Shown here in pieces: positions 1-21,480 of a stretch of DNA of 64,000 nt; the first letter of the stretch is position 1, and each line of letters opens with the position of its first letter. This DNA is from Microbulbifer flavimaris (lineage in GTDB: Bacteria; Pseudomonadota; Gammaproteobacteria; Pseudomonadales; Cellvibrionaceae). The position numbers were made by a program, and so were the translations under genes. The notes under the pieces were generated by a model. The model did not search any database. It worked only from the letters and a program-made list of their open reading frames with translations, and had not been told where the DNA came from. The stretch is taken from positions 1 to 64,000 of the forward strand of contig NZ_LRFG02000001.1 of the NCBI RefSeq assembly GCF_001641755.2, given 5' to 3'.

Positions 1-560
1 CGCAGGCCGGCATCCAGCCTCCCACCGTGCGACCTTGGAGCAGCGGACCTTAGCTCGGCTCACGGGCAGATGGATCCCGGATCAAGTCCGGGATGACAAG
101 CGAGGTTGAATTCACCTTCGTCGTCATGCCGGCGAAGGCCGGCATCCAGCCTCCCACCGTGCGACCTTGGAGCAGCGGAGCTTAGCTCGGCTCAGGGGCA
201 GATGGATCCCGGATCAAGTCCGGGATGACGGACGATGGTGGTTTCCATTGTTTCGTCATGCCGGCGCAGGCCGGCATCCAGCCTCCCACCGTGCGACCTT
301 GGAGCAGCGGACCTTAGCTCGGCTCACGGGCAGATGGATCCCGGATCAAGTCCGGGATGACAGATGATGGTGGTTTCCATTGTTTCGTCATGCCGGCGCA
401 GGCCGGCATCCAGCCTCCCATCGTGCGACCTTGGAGCAGCGGACCTTATCTTGGCTCACGGGCAGATGGATCCCGGATCAAGTCCGGGATGACAGGTGAG
501 GCTGAATTCACCTTCGTCGTCATGCCGGCGCAGGCCGGCATCCAGCCCCTCGAGCTGTCA
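1..560. repeat. Tandem array of 132-bp units made of inverted palindromic elements
   Basis: The same landmark (GGCCGGCATCCAG) begins at 5, 137, 269, 401 and 533, so the unit is exactly 132 bp and there are four full copies plus a partial fifth. Each unit has one element in forward orientation (CGTC, ATGCCGGC stem, GCAG loop, GCCGGCAT stem, CCAG) and one in reverse orientation (TGGATCCCGGA...TCCGGGATGAC), separated by unique spacers. Copies differ by a few substitutions; the spacer before the forward element switches between two variants. Because 132 is divisible by three, open frames run through the array, but they encode only repeat peptides and are not genes. The array is cut by the window edge. 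Confidence 0.95.
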
Positions 561-2894: not shown

Positions 2895-3335
2895 TATCGT
2901 CATGCCGGCGCAGGCCGGCATCCCCAAAAACCACAGAAGCCTAGCCCCAGCGATAGACCGCTATCTCAGGCCTATGGCCAATGAAATCCCGGATCATCCG
3001 GGCTGAAGCGAGAGCGCGGTTCCTCCCCCCGTCGTCATGCCGGCGCAGGCCGGCATCCAGAAAACCACAGAAGCCCAGCCCCAGCGATAGACTGCTATCA
3101 CAGGCCTATGGCCAATGAAATACCCGGTCATCCGGGTTGAAGCGAGAGCGCGGTTCCTCCCCCCGTCGTCATGCCGGCGCAGGCCGGCATCCAGAAAACC
3201 ACAGAAGCCCAGCCACAGCGATAGGCTGCTATCACAGGCCTATGGCCAATGAAATACCGGGTCATCCGGGTTGAAGCGAGAGCGCGGTTCCTCCCCCCCG
3301 TCGTCATGCCGGCGCAGGCCGGCATCCAGAGGCCA
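2895..3335. repeat. Tandem array of 134/135-bp palindromic-element units
   Basis: Forward elements (CGTCATGCC...) start at 2898, 3033, 3167 and 3302, giving periods of 135, 134 and 135 bp. Between them is a weaker inverted partner (TCCCGG..CCGGG type, for example near 2986) and a conserved spacer including GAAGCGAGAGCGCGGTTCC. Unit sequence and length differ from the array at 1-560, so this array expanded independently. It fills the mutT-yacG intergenic region between convergent genes. Open frames here encode only repeat peptides. Confidence 0.92.
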
Positions 3336-4273: not shown

Positions 4274-4459
4274 CGTCATCCCGGCGAAGGCCGGGATCCA
4301 GTGAACCACTGGGGTGGAGTTTAGCGGCGGACCACAAAGCCAGCCTGCGGGCCAATGGATCCCAGACCAAGTTCGGGATGATGATTCAGCACACTCACCA
4401 CGCGCTCGTCACCCCGGGGCAGAGCCCGTACTGGACTTGATCCGGCACCGGGATCCAGA
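4274..4459. repeat. Cluster of palindromic elements between coaE and pilD
   Basis: A well-formed forward element lies at 4274-4301 (ATCCCGGC / GCCGGGAT stem). Degenerate inverted copies follow near 4353-4384 and 4409-4459. They fill the pilD-coaE intercistronic gap. Unlike the three arrays, there is no regular period. Confidence 0.8.
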
Positions 4460-6659: not shown

Positions 6660-6690
6660 TAGTCATTCCGGCGCAGGCCGGAATCCAGTG
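6660..6690. repeat. Single palindromic element between pilB and pilC
   Basis: One forward-type element with ATTCCGGC / GCCGGAAT arms and a GCAG loop, ending in CCAG. It lies in the pilB-pilC intercistronic gap, where a transcript hairpin could affect relative expression. Confidence 0.85.
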
Positions 6691-8649: not shown

Positions 8650-8678
8650 CGTCATACCGGCGCGGGCCGGTATCCAGA
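8650..8678. repeat. Single palindromic element upstream of pilA
   Basis: Forward-type copy with ATACCGGC / GCCGGTAT arms, ending in CCAG. Both arms carry the same change relative to the array copies, so pairing is kept. Confidence 0.85.
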
Positions 8679-11677: not shown

Positions 11678-14600
11678 CTAGTGAAAGCTTCTGACCTCCT
11701 GAATTTTTGACCATTCGATCGATACTACCTTTTTTGCAATAACATGGATTGGCGTGGCAGAGTCGTATTCCCCGCCTTTCTGGATTGATCCGTTGACCTT
11801 TAATACCTTACCCCGTGTTAGCTCTGCTCGATATAGCTGCTGGGTATTCTCCCACACTACTAAATTCATCGCTCCTGTCTCATCCTCAAGGGTAAGAAAC
11901 ATCACCCCTGAGGCGCTTCCTGGGCGCTGGCGGCATGTGACCAATCCTATAACTGTAACCTGGTGGCCATCTTTGAGTTTCGGGAGTTCACTGGCCTTGA
12001 GGGCGTGGTGATACTCCTTTCGCTTGCGTAACAAGGCAATGGGGTGCTCCCTCAGGCTGAGGCCGGTACTGGAATAGTCGCTGTATGTGTCATCCTCCAG
12101 AGTGTGGGGTGGGCTGTGAAGCTCTACTGCGAAGTTTGTCGACTCTAGGCTGAGGGAGCGCCAAGCATTGTTATAGCGGTTTTCCTCCAGGCTATGGAAG
12201 GCATTGGCACTGGCTAGTAGGGTGATCTGGTCGCGGGGAAGGTTAGTTGTCTGGCGAAAGTGGGCCAGAGAATTGAAAGTTGTTTTCCCGCGGGTGGTTG
12301 CAATGGCTTCCGCGCTTTGCTGGTCGAGGCCTTTGATCAGGCGCATCCCGAGGCGCAGGCCCGCAGCCTTATCCTCCTTGGTAGTTATGGATCCCGGCCT
12401 GCGCGGGGATGACGAGATCCGGGCCTGAGAGGGTTGCTTATTGGTTACCGTGGGGCCCGGTAATTCCAGTCTGTGGTCCCACTGGCTGTAAAGCACATTG
12501 ATTGGAAGTACTTTCACATTGTGTCGCTGGGCGTCATAAACTAGCTGGGCGGGGGCATAGAATCCCATCGGCTGGCTGTTTAGAAGGCCGCAGTAGAAAG
12601 CGGCCGGGTGGTGGTGTTTGATCCAGGCAGAAAAGTAGGCGAGCAGAGCGAAGCTGGCAGAGTGGGATTCGGGAAAGCCGTAAGCGCCGAAGCCTTTCAT
12701 CTGCTGGAACAGCTGCTCGGCGAAGTCGGCGCGGTAGCTGTTGGCTTGCATGCCCTGAATCAGTTTGTCTTTGAAGGTATTGAGGTTGCCGTTCTTGCCC
12801 CAGCTGGCCATGGCTCGGCGCAGCTGGTCGGCCTCGCCGCCGTTGAAGCCGGCGGCGACCATTGAGAGCTTGATGACCTGCTCCTGGAAGATGGGTACCC
12901 CCAGGGTGCGCTCCAGTACTGGACGCAGGTTTTCATGCGGATAGGTGACGGGCTCCAGGCCCTGTTTACGCTTGAGGTAAGGGTGGACCATGCCACCCTG
13001 TATGGGGCCCGGGCGGACGATGGCGATCTCGATGGTGAGTTCGTAAAAATTGCGTGGCTGCAGGCGCGGCAGCATGCTCATCTGGGCGCGGGACTCGATC
13101 TGGAACACGCCCACGGTGTCGGCGCGACACATCATTTCATAGACCGCCGGGTCCTCCGGCGGGATATCTTGCAGGCGCAGCTTGGGCCCGTAGAGGCCGA
13201 TATAAGTCAGTGACTTGCGCAGGGCGGTGAGCATGCCCAGGGCCAGAATATCCACCTTCATCAGTTTCAGGTCTTCGATATCTTCCTTGTCCCACTGCAC
13301 GATGGTGCGATCGTCCATGGCGGCGTTCTCAATGGGCACCAGGGTATGCAGGGGCTGTTCTGTAATCACGAAGCCGCCCACATGCTGGGACAGGTGACGG
13401 GGGAAACCGTAAATCTGCCCCATCAATTCCGGCAGCATCCGCCCGGTAGCGCTGTTTGGATCGATTCCCACTTTCTGCATCTGCCTGGGGAAGTCGTCCA
13501 TGGTGTCCCACCAGGCGCGCTCAGCGATGAGCTGCTCGATGGTAGCGCTGCCGATACCCAGTGCCTTGCCGATATCACGTAATGCGCTCTTGAAACGATA
13601 GGTAGTCTTGCTGGCGGCCAGGCCAGCGCGGTGGCGGCCGTACTTCTGGTAGATGTACTGGATGATTTCCTCGCGCCGTTCGTGCTCGAAGTCCACGTCA
13701 ATATCTGGCGGCTCGTTACGCTCACGGGAAATAAAGCGCTCGAACAACAGGCCGATACGGTGGGGGTCGATCTCGGTGATAAACAGGCAGTAACAGACCA
13801 CCGAGTTCGCCGCGGAGCCACGCCCCTGGTAAAGGATGTGTTGGCTGCGGGCGTACTGGACGATGTCATAGATGGTGAGGAAGTAGTGCTCGTATTCCAG
13901 TTCCGCGATCAGTGCGAGTTCTGTTTCTATCTGCTCGGCAATATGGGCTGCGGGTCCGTTGGGCCAACGCACTTTCTCACCGGTCTCCACCAGTTCCCGC
14001 AGATGGCTACTGGCACTTTTCCCCTTCGGTATGACTTCTGAAGGGTATTGATAGCGCAGTTCACTCAGGCAAAAGTGGCATTGCTCCGCAATCTGGATTG
14101 TATTGTCGATAGATTCTCTGGGGAAAAGTGTCGCAATGTCTTCTAGCGTACGCAGGTACCGTTCGGCGTTCTGTTCCAGCCGGTAGCCCAGCTTATCCAG
14201 AGTACAGTGATGGAAATTGGCATTGAGTACATCCTGCAGTGGCTTGCGGCTGCTGCTGTGCATCAATACGGCATTGGTGGCTACCAGGGGAAGTTCACTT
14301 TGGCGGGCAAAGTCGAGCAGTTGGTGGTTCTTCAGGTTTTGTTGACCAAGCAGCTGATTGCTAAACGCCAGGTAGAGGCGTTCCTTGAAGTGGTCCTTGA
14401 TCGCACCAGGTACTTCTAGTTTCTCAGAAGGCAGCCAGATAGCGATGCACTCGTGACAGATTTCCAATAGGTCGTTCTGGTAGGTGATGTAGCGCCCTTT
14501 TTCTGCGCGCAGGCGTGAAGTCGAGATTAACTGGCAGAGTTCGCTGTAGGCAGTTCGGGTTGGGGCTATTAGGACGATTTTCTGGCAGTTCCCTTCTGCT

Positions 14601-14968
14601 TCGTCCCCTGGCTGTCTGGCTTTGGTAACTCTGTCCTGAGCGGCGTTGCTCTCAGATTGAAGTTTAAACAGGCTGCCACAGATTAGTTTCAGTGGTTTTT
14701 CTGGATCCCGGCCTTCGCCGGGGTGACGATGGGGATTATGGTTTGCAGTCTGGGGAGCTGGAGGCCTGTCTTCGCCGTGATCACGGCGGTTTTGGGTGAG
14801 TTGTTTGAGTTCGGCATAGGCTCGCACCACACCGGAGAGGGAACATTCGTCAGTCAGCGCGAGGGTGCTGTAACCCAGTTCGTGGGCAGTGCGAGCGAGT
14901 TCCTGTGGGTGTGAGGCACCCTGTAGGAAAGAGAAGTTGCTTTGGCAGATGAGTTCGGCGTACTGCAT
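11678..14968 (-). CDS. dnaE2: Error-prone DNA polymerase III alpha subunit DnaE2 (ImuC)
   Basis: DnaE2 is the catalytic polymerase of the ImuA-ImuB-DnaE2 damage-inducible translesion system. The 1096-residue protein has an N-terminal PHP domain (SNFSFLQGASHPQEL), the polymerase core with the catalytic aspartate motif PDIDVDFE, finger and thumb regions, a helix-hairpin-helix region and a C-terminal OB fold. Two palindromic elements lie inside the frame: residues about 81-90 (RHPGEGRDPE) in the PHP region and about 851-860 (SSSPRRPGS) before LRLGMRLIKGL. Both add non-conserved loops but keep the frame open. imuB is upstream, separated by a GIY-YIG gene and more elements. The start lacks a strong Shine-Dalgarno. 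Confidence 0.95.
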   Translation of the reverse strand: MQYAELICQSNFSFLQGASHPQELARTAHELGYSTLALTDECSLSGVVRAYAELKQLTQNRRDHGEDRPPAPQTANHNPHRHPGEGRDPEKPLKLICGSLFKLQSESNAAQDRVTKARQPGDEAEGNCQKIVLIAPTRTAYSELCQLISTSRLRAEKGRYITYQNDLLEICHECIAIWLPSEKLEVPGAIKDHFKERLYLAFSNQLLGQQNLKNHQLLDFARQSELPLVATNAVLMHSSSRKPLQDVLNANFHHCTLDKLGYRLEQNAERYLRTLEDIATLFPRESIDNTIQIAEQCHFCLSELRYQYPSEVIPKGKSASSHLRELVETGEKVRWPNGPAAHIAEQIETELALIAELEYEHYFLTIYDIVQYARSQHILYQGRGSAANSVVCYCLFITEIDPHRIGLLFERFISRERNEPPDIDVDFEHERREEIIQYIYQKYGRHRAGLAASKTTYRFKSALRDIGKALGIGSATIEQLIAERAWWDTMDDFPRQMQKVGIDPNSATGRMLPELMGQIYGFPRHLSQHVGGFVITEQPLHTLVPIENAAMDDRTIVQWDKEDIEDLKLMKVDILALGMLTALRKSLTYIGLYGPKLRLQDIPPEDPAVYEMMCRADTVGVFQIESRAQMSMLPRLQPRNFYELTIEIAIVRPGPIQGGMVHPYLKRKQGLEPVTYPHENLRPVLERTLGVPIFQEQVIKLSMVAAGFNGGEADQLRRAMASWGKNGNLNTFKDKLIQGMQANSYRADFAEQLFQQMKGFGAYGFPESHSASFALLAYFSAWIKHHHPAAFYCGLLNSQPMGFYAPAQLVYDAQRHNVKVLPINVLYSQWDHRLELPGPTVTNKQPSQARISSSPRRPGSITTKEDKAAGLRLGMRLIKGLDQQSAEAIATTRGKTTFNSLAHFRQTTNLPRDQITLLASANAFHSLEENRYNNAWRSLSLESTNFAVELHSPPHTLEDDTYSDYSSTGLSLREHPIALLRKRKEYHHALKASELPKLKDGHQVTVIGLVTCRQRPGSASGVMFLTLEDETGAMNLVVWENTQQLYRAELTRGKVLKVNGSIQKGGEYDSATPIHVIAKKVVSIEWSKIQEVRSFH
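12388..12416. repeat. Palindromic element inside dnaE2 (C-terminal third)
   Basis: Reverse-orientation copy (TGGATCCCGGCC...GGGATGACGAG). On the coding strand it is translated as approximately SSSPRRPGS. One base differs between the arms, so the hairpin is slightly imperfect. Confidence 0.85.
14701..14728. repeat. Palindromic element inside dnaE2 (PHP domain)
   Basis: Reverse-orientation copy from CTGGATCCCGG to GGGTGACG, full 28-bp length. The dnaE2 frame reads it as RHPGEGRDPE, a different frame from the copy at 12388. Confidence 0.88.
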
Positions 14969-15031: not shown

Positions 15032-15061
15032 CTGGATCCCGGCCTCCGCCGGGATGACGAC
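15032..15061. repeat. Palindromic element between dnaE2 and the GIY-YIG gene
   Basis: Reverse-orientation copy (CTGGATCCCGGC...GCCGGGATGACG), about 60 bp upstream of the dnaE2 start. Confidence 0.85.
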
Positions 15062-15165: not shown

Positions 15166-15193
15166 CGTCATGCCGGCGCAGGCCGGCATCCAG
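15166..15193. repeat. Palindromic element flanking the GIY-YIG gene (3' side)
   Basis: Forward-orientation 28-bp copy, 29 bp beyond the stop codon of the minus-strand GIY-YIG gene. It is inverted relative to the copy at 15535-15562 on the other side of the gene. Confidence 0.88.
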
Positions 15194-15222
15194 GTTCTCA
15201 GGGGTGAGGGATTGTTGATGGC

Positions 15223-15513
15223 TTAGAGAATCTCTTGGTAGAGATCCCGCCACTCCGGATTGGACTCCTTAATCAATCGTATCTTCCAGGCCCTTTTCCA
15301 GTTCTTGATCAACTTCTCGCTAGTGATTGCAGTTTCCATGGTGCTGTGTTGCTCAAACCAAACCAGCGTTTTTACGCTGTATTTCTTAGTGAATCCTTCT
15401 GCAAGTTCTTCCCGGTGTTGCCAGACTCTTTTCACCAGGTCGGATGTCACGCCGGTGTAGAGTGTGCCGTTGCCTTTGCTGGCAAGAATGTAGACGGTTG
15501 GTTGTCTTTTCAT
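15223..15513 (-). CDS. Small GIY-YIG superfamily nuclease
   Basis: The 96-residue protein is a stand-alone GIY-YIG domain. Visible are VYIL (residues 7-10, in place of GIY), LYTG (19-21 YTG in place of YIG), R29 and H33 in KRVWQHR, and E67 in a helix before NWKRAWKIRLI. GIY-YIG domains cut DNA through one metal ion; the role of these short bacterial members is largely unknown. ATG 15513 is chosen because the longer frame up to 15669 only translates palindromic repeats (PAQAGIQ-like), while AAGGGC precedes this ATG. It is flanked by inverted elements and interrupts the imuB-dnaE2 linkage. Confidence 0.85.
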   Translation of the reverse strand: MKRQPTVYILASKGNGTLYTGVTSDLVKRVWQHREELAEGFTKKYSVKTLVWFEQHSTMETAITSEKLIKNWKRAWKIRLIKESNPEWRDLYQEIL

Positions 15514-15534
15514 TGCCCTTGAGTCCGGTGGTTT

Positions 15535-15562
15535 CTGGATCCCGGCCTGCGCCGGGATGACG
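15535..15562. repeat. Palindromic element flanking the GIY-YIG gene (5' side)
   Basis: Reverse-orientation 28-bp copy, 22 bp upstream of the GIY-YIG start codon. Stem ATCCCGGC / GCCGGGAT with CTGC loop. Confidence 0.9.
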
Positions 15563-15596
15563 ATAATGGTTGAATTCACTTTTCTCGATTTTTGAG

Positions 15597-15622
15597 TCCC
15601 GAGATTCGCCGGAATGACGATG
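15597..15622. repeat. Degenerate palindromic element
   Basis: Decayed reverse copy (TCCCGAGATTCGCCGGAATGACG) between imuB and the GIY-YIG gene; its arms no longer pair fully. Confidence 0.6.
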
Positions 15623-15637
15623 TCATGACTTGTTTGT

Positions 15638-17149
15638 TCAAGCGTAGATACCCTGCAGATACCACTCATCCGATGTCAGGTCCTGGTAGACCCAGTAAAG
15701 GCTGCCTTCCTCGCCGCGGGCGATGTAGTAGTCGCGGGCGTGGCGGTGGTGTTGCCACCAGTAGCCATCGATGCGTTCCGGGCCTTGTAGCAGCTGGATT
15801 TCACCGCGGTAAAAAAGCTTGTTGTCCCGCGCCTTGATGGGATCGGGGCGGGACAGGAGCCAGCTTGGCCGTGGTGCGTTCACGGGTTTTAGCTGATGTC
15901 CGCTCTGGCGGCGGCCGCTGTGGAGTACCAGGGTATCCGCGCTCTGCCAGGCCTGTTCCGGCAGGTGGCTCTCGCGCAGGGTGACGCCGGACATGGCTTC
16001 GTGACCGAGGCGCGCCTTGAGTTTGTCCAGTAGCTGGTGGCTGCACTTGAGATGGCTGTTGCCGCCGAAGAGGTCCTCATCCAGCGCATCTTCTGCCAGT
16101 GGCAGTAATTGACCGCAGGTAAGGTGCAGGGCCTGCACTTCCTGTTCCAGCTGGAAGCGCTCCAGCTGCAATTTGGTCAGCGCAATCAGGCGCTGCGGGT
16201 CCAGCTGCGGGCGGGAGATTTCTACACTCACCACCTTGCAGCCCCGCTGGCCGAAATCCAGTTTCCAGCGCAGCTGCTGGGCATACAGCTGGCGGCGCTG
16301 TAGTTGCTGGCAGAGTTCCCGCACCAGGCGGCCCGCCGGGAAAAGCAGTTGCTCGCTGTTATCCAGTGGGCTGGGGAAAAACAGTTCGCTGTGAAATTGC
16401 GGCGGTGGCTGGTAGCTGGGCACCGGATCGTGGCGGGTACCATTCAGCCGCGCCAGGTAATTGACGAAATCGCGGCCGAAACGGCTGCCCACTTCCGACA
16501 GGGGGATGGCCAGTAGTTGGCTGACCCGCTTGATTCCACAGGCATAGAGCTTGGCGATGGTCTTGTGGTCGCAATCCAGCAGTTTGGAGGGGCTGAAACT
16601 GATCCACTGACGCCACTGTTGAGCACTGGGTGGTGACTTGGCTTCCCGCAGCCACTGGCGGTGCTCTGGCAATTGGCTGAGCATATGCGCGGCACTGGGG
16701 CTATGGCCCAGCCCCATCAGTGCGCTGATGCGCATTTGTTTGAGTTCGCGCTGCAGTTGCTGGAGTAGTGGCTGCAGCCCGCCGCTGGCGCGCAGGCAGC
16801 CACTCAATTCCAGATAGAGACAGGCGGGGCGGCTCTCACCCTTGTCCATGGGCCCCGCAGCCTGCGGAGACACCACGGGCGTGAAGCTGTAACCCCACTG
16901 GGCCAGCTCTTCCAGCAGCTGTGCCTCTCTTTCATTGTCGCGGGGCAGTAATTCAAGGTCTGCACTCAGTGCACAGGCGGTGGCGATAGTGAGGCCACAC
17001 TCGATACCCCTCTGGGTAGCGACCGGATTGGCATCGACGATGGACTGTTGCTCGGCCACGGCAAGGGGGCGGTCATCGTCAGCCCTGGGCTGTGCGCGGG
17101 TCAGGGCCTGCAGGGGCAGGCTGGGAAACTGGATACAGAGCCAGAGCAT
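15638..17149 (-). CDS. imuB: ImuB, Y-family polymerase-like mutasome hub protein
   Basis: ImuB resembles Y-family polymerases but lacks catalysis; it links ImuA, DnaE2 and the beta clamp. In the 503-residue protein the N-terminal position that is DxDxFFA in active enzymes reads LCIQFPSLPLQAL, so the metal-binding aspartate is absent. The palm/finger and little-finger-like regions and the C-terminal GRGEEG-type block (YYIARGEEGSLYWVYQD) are typical of the ImuB family. Start 17149 is preferred over 17197 because AGGAG precedes it and family proteins begin MLWL. It lies about 130 bp downstream of imuA on the same strand. Confidence 0.93.
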   Translation of the reverse strand: MLWLCIQFPSLPLQALTRAQPRADDDRPLAVAEQQSIVDANPVATQRGIECGLTIATACALSADLELLPRDNEREAQLLEELAQWGYSFTPVVSPQAAGPMDKGESRPACLYLELSGCLRASGGLQPLLQQLQRELKQMRISALMGLGHSPSAAHMLSQLPEHRQWLREAKSPPSAQQWRQWISFSPSKLLDCDHKTIAKLYACGIKRVSQLLAIPLSEVGSRFGRDFVNYLARLNGTRHDPVPSYQPPPQFHSELFFPSPLDNSEQLLFPAGRLVRELCQQLQRRQLYAQQLRWKLDFGQRGCKVVSVEISRPQLDPQRLIALTKLQLERFQLEQEVQALHLTCGQLLPLAEDALDEDLFGGNSHLKCSHQLLDKLKARLGHEAMSGVTLRESHLPEQAWQSADTLVLHSGRRQSGHQLKPVNAPRPSWLLSRPDPIKARDNKLFYRGEIQLLQGPERIDGYWWQHHRHARDYYIARGEEGSLYWVYQDLTSDEWYLQGIYA

Positions 17150-17280
17150 GGGACACTCCTGCACTTTATCGTGTGCAATTACTTCAGGTGATACCACTTC
17201 CTGTTTTGGTTTTGTTCTTTGGTTTTTTCGGTTCCGGGGTTTCTACCCATGTCCGCCTCTATTGCTGCGGTAACTACCGA

Positions 17281-20731: not shown

Positions 20732-20806
20732 GCGCGGATCGACTATTCCCAATCACACCCGGCTCTCCAAACCGTCTTCATGCCTGCCGCGATGGTTTGT
20801 TCGAGT

Positions 20807-21480
20807 CGTCATGCCGGCACAGGCCGGCTTCAATATTCCTTAAAACCCTGTCAATACTCTGGATCCCGGCCTGCGCCGGGATGACGAGGGAGTAGTTGTT
20901 AGCGTCGTCGTGCCGGCGCACGCCGGCATCCATATTCCTTAAAATCCCATCAATACCCTGGATCCCTTCTGCGCCGGGATGACGAGGGAGTAGTTGTTAG
21001 CGTCGTCATGCCGGTGCAGTCCGGTATCTATGTTCCTCAAAGCTTCATCAATACTCTGGATCCCGGCCTGCGCCGGGATGACGAGGGAGTAGTTGTTAGC
21101 GTCGTCATGTCGGTGCAGTCCGGTATCTATGTTCCTCAAAGCTTCATCAAAACCCTGGATCCCGGCCTGCTCCGGGATGACGAGGGAGTAGTTGTTAGCT
21201 TCGTCGTGCCGGTGCAGGGCCGGTATCCATATTCCTGAAGGGCCATCAAAACCCTGGATCCCGGCCTGCGCCGGGATGACGAGGGAGTAGTTGTTAGGAT
21301 CCTTATGCCAGTGCAGGGCCGGTATTCATATTCCTGAGGGGCCATCAAAACCCTGGATCCCGGCCTGCGCCGGGGTGACAAGGGGAGTAGTTGTTAGTGT
21401 CGTCATGCCGGCGCAGGCCGGTATCCATGCTCCTCAAAGCGCCATCAAGACCCTGGACGTCGGCTTGCGTCGGGGTGATG
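20807..21480. repeat. Tandem array of about 99-bp palindromic-element units
   Basis: The motif GACGAGGGAGTAG recurs at 20883, 20981, 21080, 21179 and 21278, and a variant occurs at 21377: periods 98, 99, 99, 99, 99. Each unit has a forward element (CGTCATGCCGG...), a spacer with ATATTCCTTAAAA or TGTTCCTCAAAG, then a reverse element (TGGATCCCGGCC...GGGATGACG). Several forward copies have decayed while reverse copies stay close to consensus. The last unit ends with a diverged pair. It fills the interval before the convergent S46 peptidase gene. Confidence 0.93.

Follow-up and report, generated by a model that had tools for sequence, protein, structure and literature searches.

The window analysed here, a stretch of 64,000 nucleotides from Microbulbifer flavimaris (NZ_LRFG02000001.1, positions 1 to 64,000), holds a small nuclease gene set between two inverted palindromes, and it raises the question of whether an enzyme of this kind could be what spreads such repeats. 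Those passages of the published description of CGTC-REPs that deal with mobility report no associated transposase genes and state that the repeats "apparently lack a dedicated transposase" (Di Nocera et al. 2013, PMC3733652), and the literature has thus posed the question of their enzyme since 2013. We consider it fairly probable that the nuclease gene and the CGTC-REPs belong to a single system comparable in its working to a RAYT transposase and its REPINs, with a GIY-YIG enzyme in place of an HUH one.

The 96-residue product deduced from the reading frame contains a GIY-YIG domain (Pfam PF01541, E 1.7e-14) and no other domain that we could find. Residues Y8, Y19, R29, H33 and E66 are invariant in an alignment of 43 sequences, the catalytic Tyr, Tyr, Arg and Glu of the superfamily being presumably among them. 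An AlphaFold2 model of the protein (pLDDT 93.1, pTM 0.85) had UPF0213 as its closest fold (E 8.5e-4), followed by the Slx1 domain (0.026) and the UvrC domain (0.10), and a profile match to 1ZG2 was also obtained (E 3.6e-8). The NCBIfam search matched no family, and the Pfam search of the protein detected no Y1_Tnp or HUH features, by which a member of the RAYT group would be recognized. Along the minus strand the order is imuB-like, GIY-YIG and dnaE2-like gene, the two neighbours encoding what we take to be ImuB and DnaE2.

Both 28-bp palindromes turn their CCA tails to the nuclease gene and their CGTC heads outward (Table 1). Once one of them is turned they are identical at 26 of 28 positions, and since both differences fall in one stem pair, as a compensatory change from G-C to C-G, the hairpin is kept. 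Each is predicted to form an 8-bp stem with a 4-nt loop (−10.1 and −9.5 kcal/mol), and 0 and 1 of 200 shuffles, respectively, folded as well. The first-pass annotation of this DNA had described a gene bracketed by inverted, near-identical palindromes at 29 and 22 bp; the bracket and the first distance proved correct, while the second measured 21 bp. Its statement that the same element fills three arrays and many nearby gaps was borne out as well, a 27-nt consensus giving 25 matches in the window with up to three mismatches versus 0 in 100 shuffles. The free stem pair of the pattern was complementary in 23 of 24 window matches, where 10.2 were expected from base frequencies, and one REP dimer (20807-20886) is predicted to fold into a single long hairpin (−21.3 kcal/mol, z −5.5). 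The location of REPs inside replication and repair genes, seen here in dnaE2, is likewise described for CGTC-REPs in parts of PMC3733652. The genome as a whole carries 103 REPs, with dense arrays (window 1-547; contig C4 22786-34599) of which some stand at contig ends, and within them the loop types NTNC and TCAAG are often adjacent and in opposite orientation. Descent of the spacers was considered and dropped. The REPs at 3033, 3167, 4407 and 14701 do share a few tail-side bases with the REP at 15535 and its leader, but a genus-wide search for this tail-side spacer pattern gave seven places in the window genome versus 0 to 5 in the others.

Table 1. Nuclease gene, neighbouring genes and REP elements located in the window
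Feature	Position	Strand	Basis
Tandem array, period 132, of oppositely oriented REPs with two types of loop	1..547		
Tandem REP array, period 134	2897..3330		
Dispersed REP	4274..4300	-	pattern
Dispersed REP	6661..6687	-	pattern
Dispersed REP	8650..8676	-	pattern
dnaE2-like DNA polymerase III alpha gene, downstream neighbour of nuclease gene	11678..14968	-	
REP within dnaE2 reading frame, one mismatch	12388..12414	+	ORF list, pattern
REP within dnaE2 reading frame, one mismatch	14702..14728	+	ORF list, pattern
REP between nuclease gene and dnaE2	15033..15059	+	pattern
CGTC-REP downstream of nuclease gene, CCA tail gene-ward	15166..15193	-	sequence, pattern, fold
GIY-YIG nuclease gene, 96 aa (P0001)	15223..15513	-	ORF, Pfam, alignment, AlphaFold2 model
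CGTC-REP upstream of nuclease gene, CCA tail gene-ward	15535..15562	+	sequence, pattern, fold
Degenerate REP copy, stem broken, farther upstream	15592..15619	+	read from sequence; missed by pattern
imuB-like gene (Pfam IMS), upstream neighbour of nuclease gene	15638..17197	-	
Tandem array of REP dimers, period 99	20797..21478		

The identity of the repeat became clearer from 80 related loci, which yielded 308 elements, whereas a single shuffle of their sequences gave 5. Their consensus reads C-TGG-AT-stem-loop-stem-AT-GAC-G; the base after GAC is G in 235 and A in 66 of the 308, corresponding to a CGTC end or its TGTC variant, and AT..AT stands at the stem base in 253, while the tail gives no independent count, as the finder demanded TGG and GAC tips. 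Complementarity of the free stem pair in 203 of 205 pattern matches from these loci (110.9 expected) indicates a true hairpin maintained by paired changes. Among close REP pairs, 64 were tails-in, 40 heads-in and 20 same-way, the commonest arrangement thus having facing tails, a median of 24.5 bp apart. According to the passages of PMC3733652 that define them, CGTC-REPs have a CGTC head, a CCA tail, a paired AT at the stem base and loops of 4 or 5 nt, often occur as inverted dimers, and include dRS3 of Neisseria as well as RPE-4 and RPE-6 of Rickettsia. The elements found here share head, tail, AT pair, loops and dimers with that description, and on sequence grounds the window palindromes are members of the published family. 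The same paper, as far as its account of dimers goes, gives HH dimers as predominant and TT as rare, whereas tails-in pairs exceed heads-in pairs here, although the H/T convention used there may differ.

The first-pass annotation had left open that the gene and the palindromes co-occur by coincidence, and had proposed looking for palindromes around homologues. As homologues we took the best 80 of 184 loci from GTDB species genomes (58-73% identical, many metagenome-assembled), which according to their titles come from Gamma-, Beta-, Alpha-, Delta- and Zetaproteobacteria, Planctomycetes, Chloroflexi, Binatia and Patescibacteria. REPs within 100 bp on both sides, oriented as in the window, accompanied 25 of the 80 homologues versus 0 of 483 control ORFs from these loci, a result that removes coincidence from consideration, and a REP on at least one side within that distance was found at 66 of 80 versus 92 of 483. 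Orientation was the correct one for 38 of 45 upstream REPs (p 3e-6) and 43 of 56 downstream REPs (p 7e-5), while 14 of the 80 had no finder REP within 100 bp on either side.

A flank test free of any consensus was run as well, since the finder insists on fixed tips: each gene's upstream 150 bp were aligned with its downstream 150 bp in reverse complement, and a score of at least 28 counted as a pass. Enrichment of palindromes, whose absence had been named beforehand as refuting the idea, was evident here too, with 45 of 78 subfamily genes passing versus 10 of 478 control ORFs, and 21 of 28 versus 0 of 35 in a further set obtained from class genomes by a profile search (two of the 80 loci and one of 29 had too little flank to be scored, and the own-genome locus was left out of the 29). 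None of 27 UPF0213-like GIY-YIG genes passed, and given this difference from the subfamily genes of both samples, the bracketing is specific to the nuclease subfamily and not a property of GIY-YIG genes in general. One of the 16 UPF0213-like genes of the class (L231) does have a finder REP 16 bp away, and another UPF0213-like gene (L227) has a nearby hairpin unlike a REP.

The pairing was also observed in other collections. In IMG/VR contigs, 30 of 37 relatives (at least 47% identity), some of them near-duplicates, reached a score of 28 versus 0 of 5 distant ones, as counted by eye from the list for the 42 loci scored out of 44 given, from a total of 47. These 47 loci may be proviral or host DNA; a known-phage gene was considered and rejected, no match being obtained in 50,697 phage records. 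Among plasmid records, a finder REP lay within 100 bp in 4 of 12 loci (12 of 33 records), L134, L138 and L143 having a correctly oriented pair within that distance and L135 having dimers on both sides. By eye, inverted palindromes with other tails were recognized at L139 and L142 and imperfect copies at L132, and no palindromes at L133 and L137. The protein encoded at L132 belongs to Neisseria gonorrhoeae, a species of the dRS3 genus, and is 63% identical to the window nuclease. Two N. gonorrhoeae records filed as plasmids (NZ_CP119140.1 and NZ_CP119142.1) are of chromosome size (2.2 Mb).

Not only do nuclease and REPs occur together, but they also co-vary. Stem types differ between genomes (CCGGC, CCCGC, CCAGC, CCGGGTCAAG, TTGCGAG), and left and right stem 8-mers are equal in 26 of 41 loci versus 17% of cross-locus pairs. 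REP stem distance tracked nuclease protein distance, with a Mantel r of 0.45 for all pairs and 0.32 for pairs less than 70% identical, neither value being reached in any of 5000 permutations, in a set of 79 of 109 loci, namely those where one or more REPs were correctly oriented. Relatedness of the hosts could contribute to this co-variation. Such relatedness is not the explanation in G398, a complete 3.2-Mb genome in which paralogues have different REP types: nuclease L174 has adjacent CC-stem REPs of the TGGATCCC type, and a second nuclease, for which blastn showed no similarity to L174 at the DNA level, is present as three copies at three sites (L175-L177; 93-96% identical over about 460 bp), each bracketed by the CGTCATTGCGAGG-type REP. 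This latter type gave 42 matches in G398, six of them at the three nuclease copies, with 40 of 108 candidates scored. The three copies share about 26 bp outside both REPs, and as the shared unit exceeds the REPs in this way, the REPs may not be the unit ends; by analogy with elements that have subterminal hairpins, the cleavage sites may lie outside the hairpins. Multiple copies were noticed elsewhere. At L178 (contig C16 of G333) two nuclease genes with identical printed flanks lie 1,039 bases apart as a tandem duplication, and several nuclease copies of G121 (L179-L183) adjoin what is presumably the start of an IS transposase, so that an IS may have spread the copies in that genome.

The first-pass annotation had also suggested testing whether gene presence goes with repeat number, and it does. 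Within Microbulbifer (40 genomes, one of them 80% complete), the median number of REPs was 102.5 in 10 gene-bearing genomes versus 1 in 30 without the gene (p 3e-6), the window genome and the pseudogene genome G030 being counted as gene-bearing, and 25 of the 30 gene-less genomes had at most 12. The pseudogene (L091) has an in-frame stop, and the 27 REPs of G030 are the lowest number among the ten. Across the class (370 genomes of at least 90% completeness, own genome left out of the comparison), 76 gene-bearing genomes had a median of 6.5 and a mean of 25.1 REPs versus 0 and 4.2 in 293 gene-less ones (p 8e-17), where presence meant a profile E below 1e-20, a threshold chosen after the scores were seen. 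The gene-bearing side was also higher in 31 of 44 mixed families, lower in 8 and tied in 5 (stratified permutation p 5e-5; family labels entered by hand from the search output). The REP pattern, TGGATNCCN{6,14}GGNATGAC, detects CC-stem REPs only.

REP-rich genomes lacking the gene, which had been named beforehand as the observation that would speak against a role of the nuclease, do exist as a minority. Excluding the own genome, 15 of 38 class genomes with at least 20 REPs lack a full gene, up to a maximum of 200 REPs in G357 (a 670-contig draft), and five Microbulbifer genomes have 27 to 99 REPs and no gene. A looser re-search of these 20 genomes recovered remnants in G269 and G240 and a contig-end fragment in G148, which accounts for only three of the 20. 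The remnant in G269 (L225) is a nuclease gene with an internal deletion between two REPs, by its sequence a decay intermediate. Several genomes that are REP-rich without the gene are near-complete, namely G258, in two contigs, and G020, G108 and G110, each in a single contig. In such genomes the REPs may have persisted after loss of the gene, or another enzyme may be at work. On the other side, pattern REPs number fewer than 5 in 32 of the 76 class genomes that carry the gene, and 15 of these 32 have none; the four of the 15 that were inspected (G088, G121, G196 and G296) all show inverted palindromes of other stem or tail type near at least one gene copy. In Microbulbifer, only 4 of 10 nuclease genes have a REP on the imuB side (the window genome, G021, G030 and G033).

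That no RAYT is encoded in the window had been noted from the start, and the absence extends to the whole genome, in which no Y1_Tnp match was found at E 0.001 or better despite its 103 REPs; at the same threshold none was found in G021, with 154 REPs. As REP-rich genomes without a Y1_Tnp match exist, HUH enzymes are not required for REPs, and an HUH enzyme as the required mobiliser in the window genome was ruled out. Four genomes (G006, G010, G013 and G036) have 6 to 11 Y1_Tnp matches and zero pattern REPs, and two are rich in both Y1_Tnp matches and REPs, G033 (10 and 120) and G022 (9 and 40).

In the ten Microbulbifer genomes that have it, the nuclease gene is single-copy and adjoins imuB in every case, with dnaE2 on its other side in nine (the stretch from G015 ended first), which indicates a resident gene and not a frequent jumper in this genus. 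The imuB-dnaE2 junction seems to be an insertion hot spot, and in G015, G022 and G020 (L106, L114 and L119) it holds other small genes, which we take to be toxin-antitoxin-like. A clean empty site defining the moving unit was not found: in Microbulbifer, 20 of the 30 junctions retrieved lack the gene, and these measure 35-178 bp or hold other genes and aligned too poorly to fix the ends, and in Shinella one search and one locus offered no usable gene-free site. In Azospirillum lipoferum the gene and two dimers, one on each side of it, occupy about 500 bp between sufB and sufC, and three relatives, 95.6-96.6% identical over the matched parts, lack this insertion. The comparison shows that a block was gained or lost, its exact unit being blurred by ends that are not sharp.

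Taken together, these data make the GIY-YIG nuclease the strongest candidate for the missing mobiliser of CGTC-REPs, and we infer that it cuts and transposes them. Slx1 and UvrC are structure-guided nucleases, and a fold nearest to UPF0213, Slx1 and UvrC suggests that the enzyme reads the folded REP, although the best Slx1 and UvrC matches stand only at E 0.026 and 0.10. It would recognize the hairpin, probably where the DNA is single-stranded or extruded, taking its bearings from the unpaired CGTC and CCA ends, and would nick next to it. The non-autonomous unit might be the REP dimer, tails facing and about 25 bp apart, and the gene-bearing unit a dimer with the gene in its spacer. Strand joining is not an activity to be expected of a GIY-YIG nuclease, so the host would have to complete the copy, by repair or by replication from the nick. 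The resident single-copy gene, at least in Microbulbifer, would act in trans, as RAYT genes do.

Other readings account for parts of the same observations. Homing, in which the REP dimers are the target and not the cargo, the gene is copied into a break in the REPs or their spacers and the REPs spread by other means, seems unlikely to us. In its favour, the gene sits within dimer-like pairs, several gene copies exist in genomes such as G398 and G121, a need for REPs as targets would also produce the copy-number link, and GIY-YIG is a classic homing-endonuclease domain, as stated in parts of PMC1564403. However, homing predicts many gene copies, whereas Microbulbifer has one, next to imuB, and it leaves unexplained both the low REP numbers of most gene-less Microbulbifer genomes (at most 12 in 25 of 30) and what spreads the REPs where no HUH protein was found. 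Moreover, the full outer arm in G398 occurs only at the three gene copies among the 42 matches listed (40 of 108 candidates scored). An enzyme of housekeeping type, related to Slx1 or UvrC, that trims hairpins or cruciforms, is retained because it lets cells tolerate REPs and moves nothing would agree with the nearest folds and with a gene presence that follows REP load. We regard it as improbable, since it explains neither the correctly oriented REP bracket nor the differing REP types of the G398 paralogues, and fewer than 5 pattern REPs were counted in 32 of the 76 class genomes with the gene.

It is very improbable that the link is merely historical, other transposases (IS or MITE-like) having moved REP-gene cassettes. 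The arms that the G398 copies share beyond the REPs would fit this scenario, as would the G121 copies beside what we believe to be an IS transposase start; yet the link recurs across several phyla, judging by locus titles, with differing stems that track the protein, and it is almost absent from control ORFs of these loci. As for REP-dense intergenic regions that just happen to surround the gene, the 103 copies of the window genome would make such an encounter easier, but the counts refute it (25 of 80 versus 0 of 483 control ORFs, and 0 of 27 other GIY-YIG genes), so that we attach practically no probability to it. One system of nuclease and CGTC-REPs thus remains our preferred reading. A bolder form of it, for and against which we see about equal chances, would make CGTC-REPs a new kind of mobile element, in which a minimal GIY-YIG nuclease drives the copying of REP dimers through repair synthesis that starts from a nick, neither a transposase or integrase nor an HUH enzyme or reverse transcriptase taking part, and one enzyme family accounts for repeats in several phyla, including dRS3 of Neisseria.

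The pairing of a known repeat family with an enzyme of another superfamily is new as far as open-access searches show. A text search for 'GIY-YIG' found nothing in PMC3733652, and the open-access literature returned no paper for GIY-YIG with 'repetitive extragenic palindromic' and none for GIY-YIG with dRS3; wider combinations gave nothing joining GIY-YIG and REPs among the matches listed. Likewise, the main text of a 2025 REP survey has no word starting with nuclease, transposase or GIY-YIG, and the 2006 GIY-YIG classification gave no match for 'palindrom' or 'flank'. The gene family now makes the question of the enzyme directly testable, and in cultured bacteria that are harmless. If the nuclease does spread the repeat, the REP life style would have been invented twice, with unrelated nucleases, and GIY-YIG chemistry would suffice for the multiplication of a hairpin; there would also be an explanation for repeats by which intergenic regions and transcripts are shaped in many bacteria.

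Among known proteins, the single-domain GIY-YIG proteins of the UPF0213/YhbQ type (1ZG2, 1YWL) are the nearest solved relatives by profile and fold, but the flanks of their genes are devoid of inverted repeats (0 of 27), and identity to them within the same genus is just 29-36%. The GIY-YIG domain is a familiar component of mobile DNA, in homing endonucleases of the I-TevI type and in Penelope elements; unlike these, the system described here has no intron, no extra DNA-binding domain in its 96 residues and no reverse transcriptase. The closest parallel is with RAYT genes and REPINs, which have in common with it a short hairpin, one end of which is unpaired and conserved, as well as inverted dimers and a resident gene in single copy. 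RAYT genes are flanked by their repeats (PMC3733652, in part), REPIN number in E. coli is higher where the gene is present (PMC8049555, in part), and enzyme and repeat have co-evolved (PMC8266576, in part); here too the gene is flanked by repeats whose number is tied to it, with the exceptions given above. The difference lies in the partners themselves, since RAYTs are HUH/Y1 enzymes whose repeats carry GTAG, whereas here an enzyme of the GIY-YIG superfamily accompanies repeats with a CGTC head and a CCA tail.
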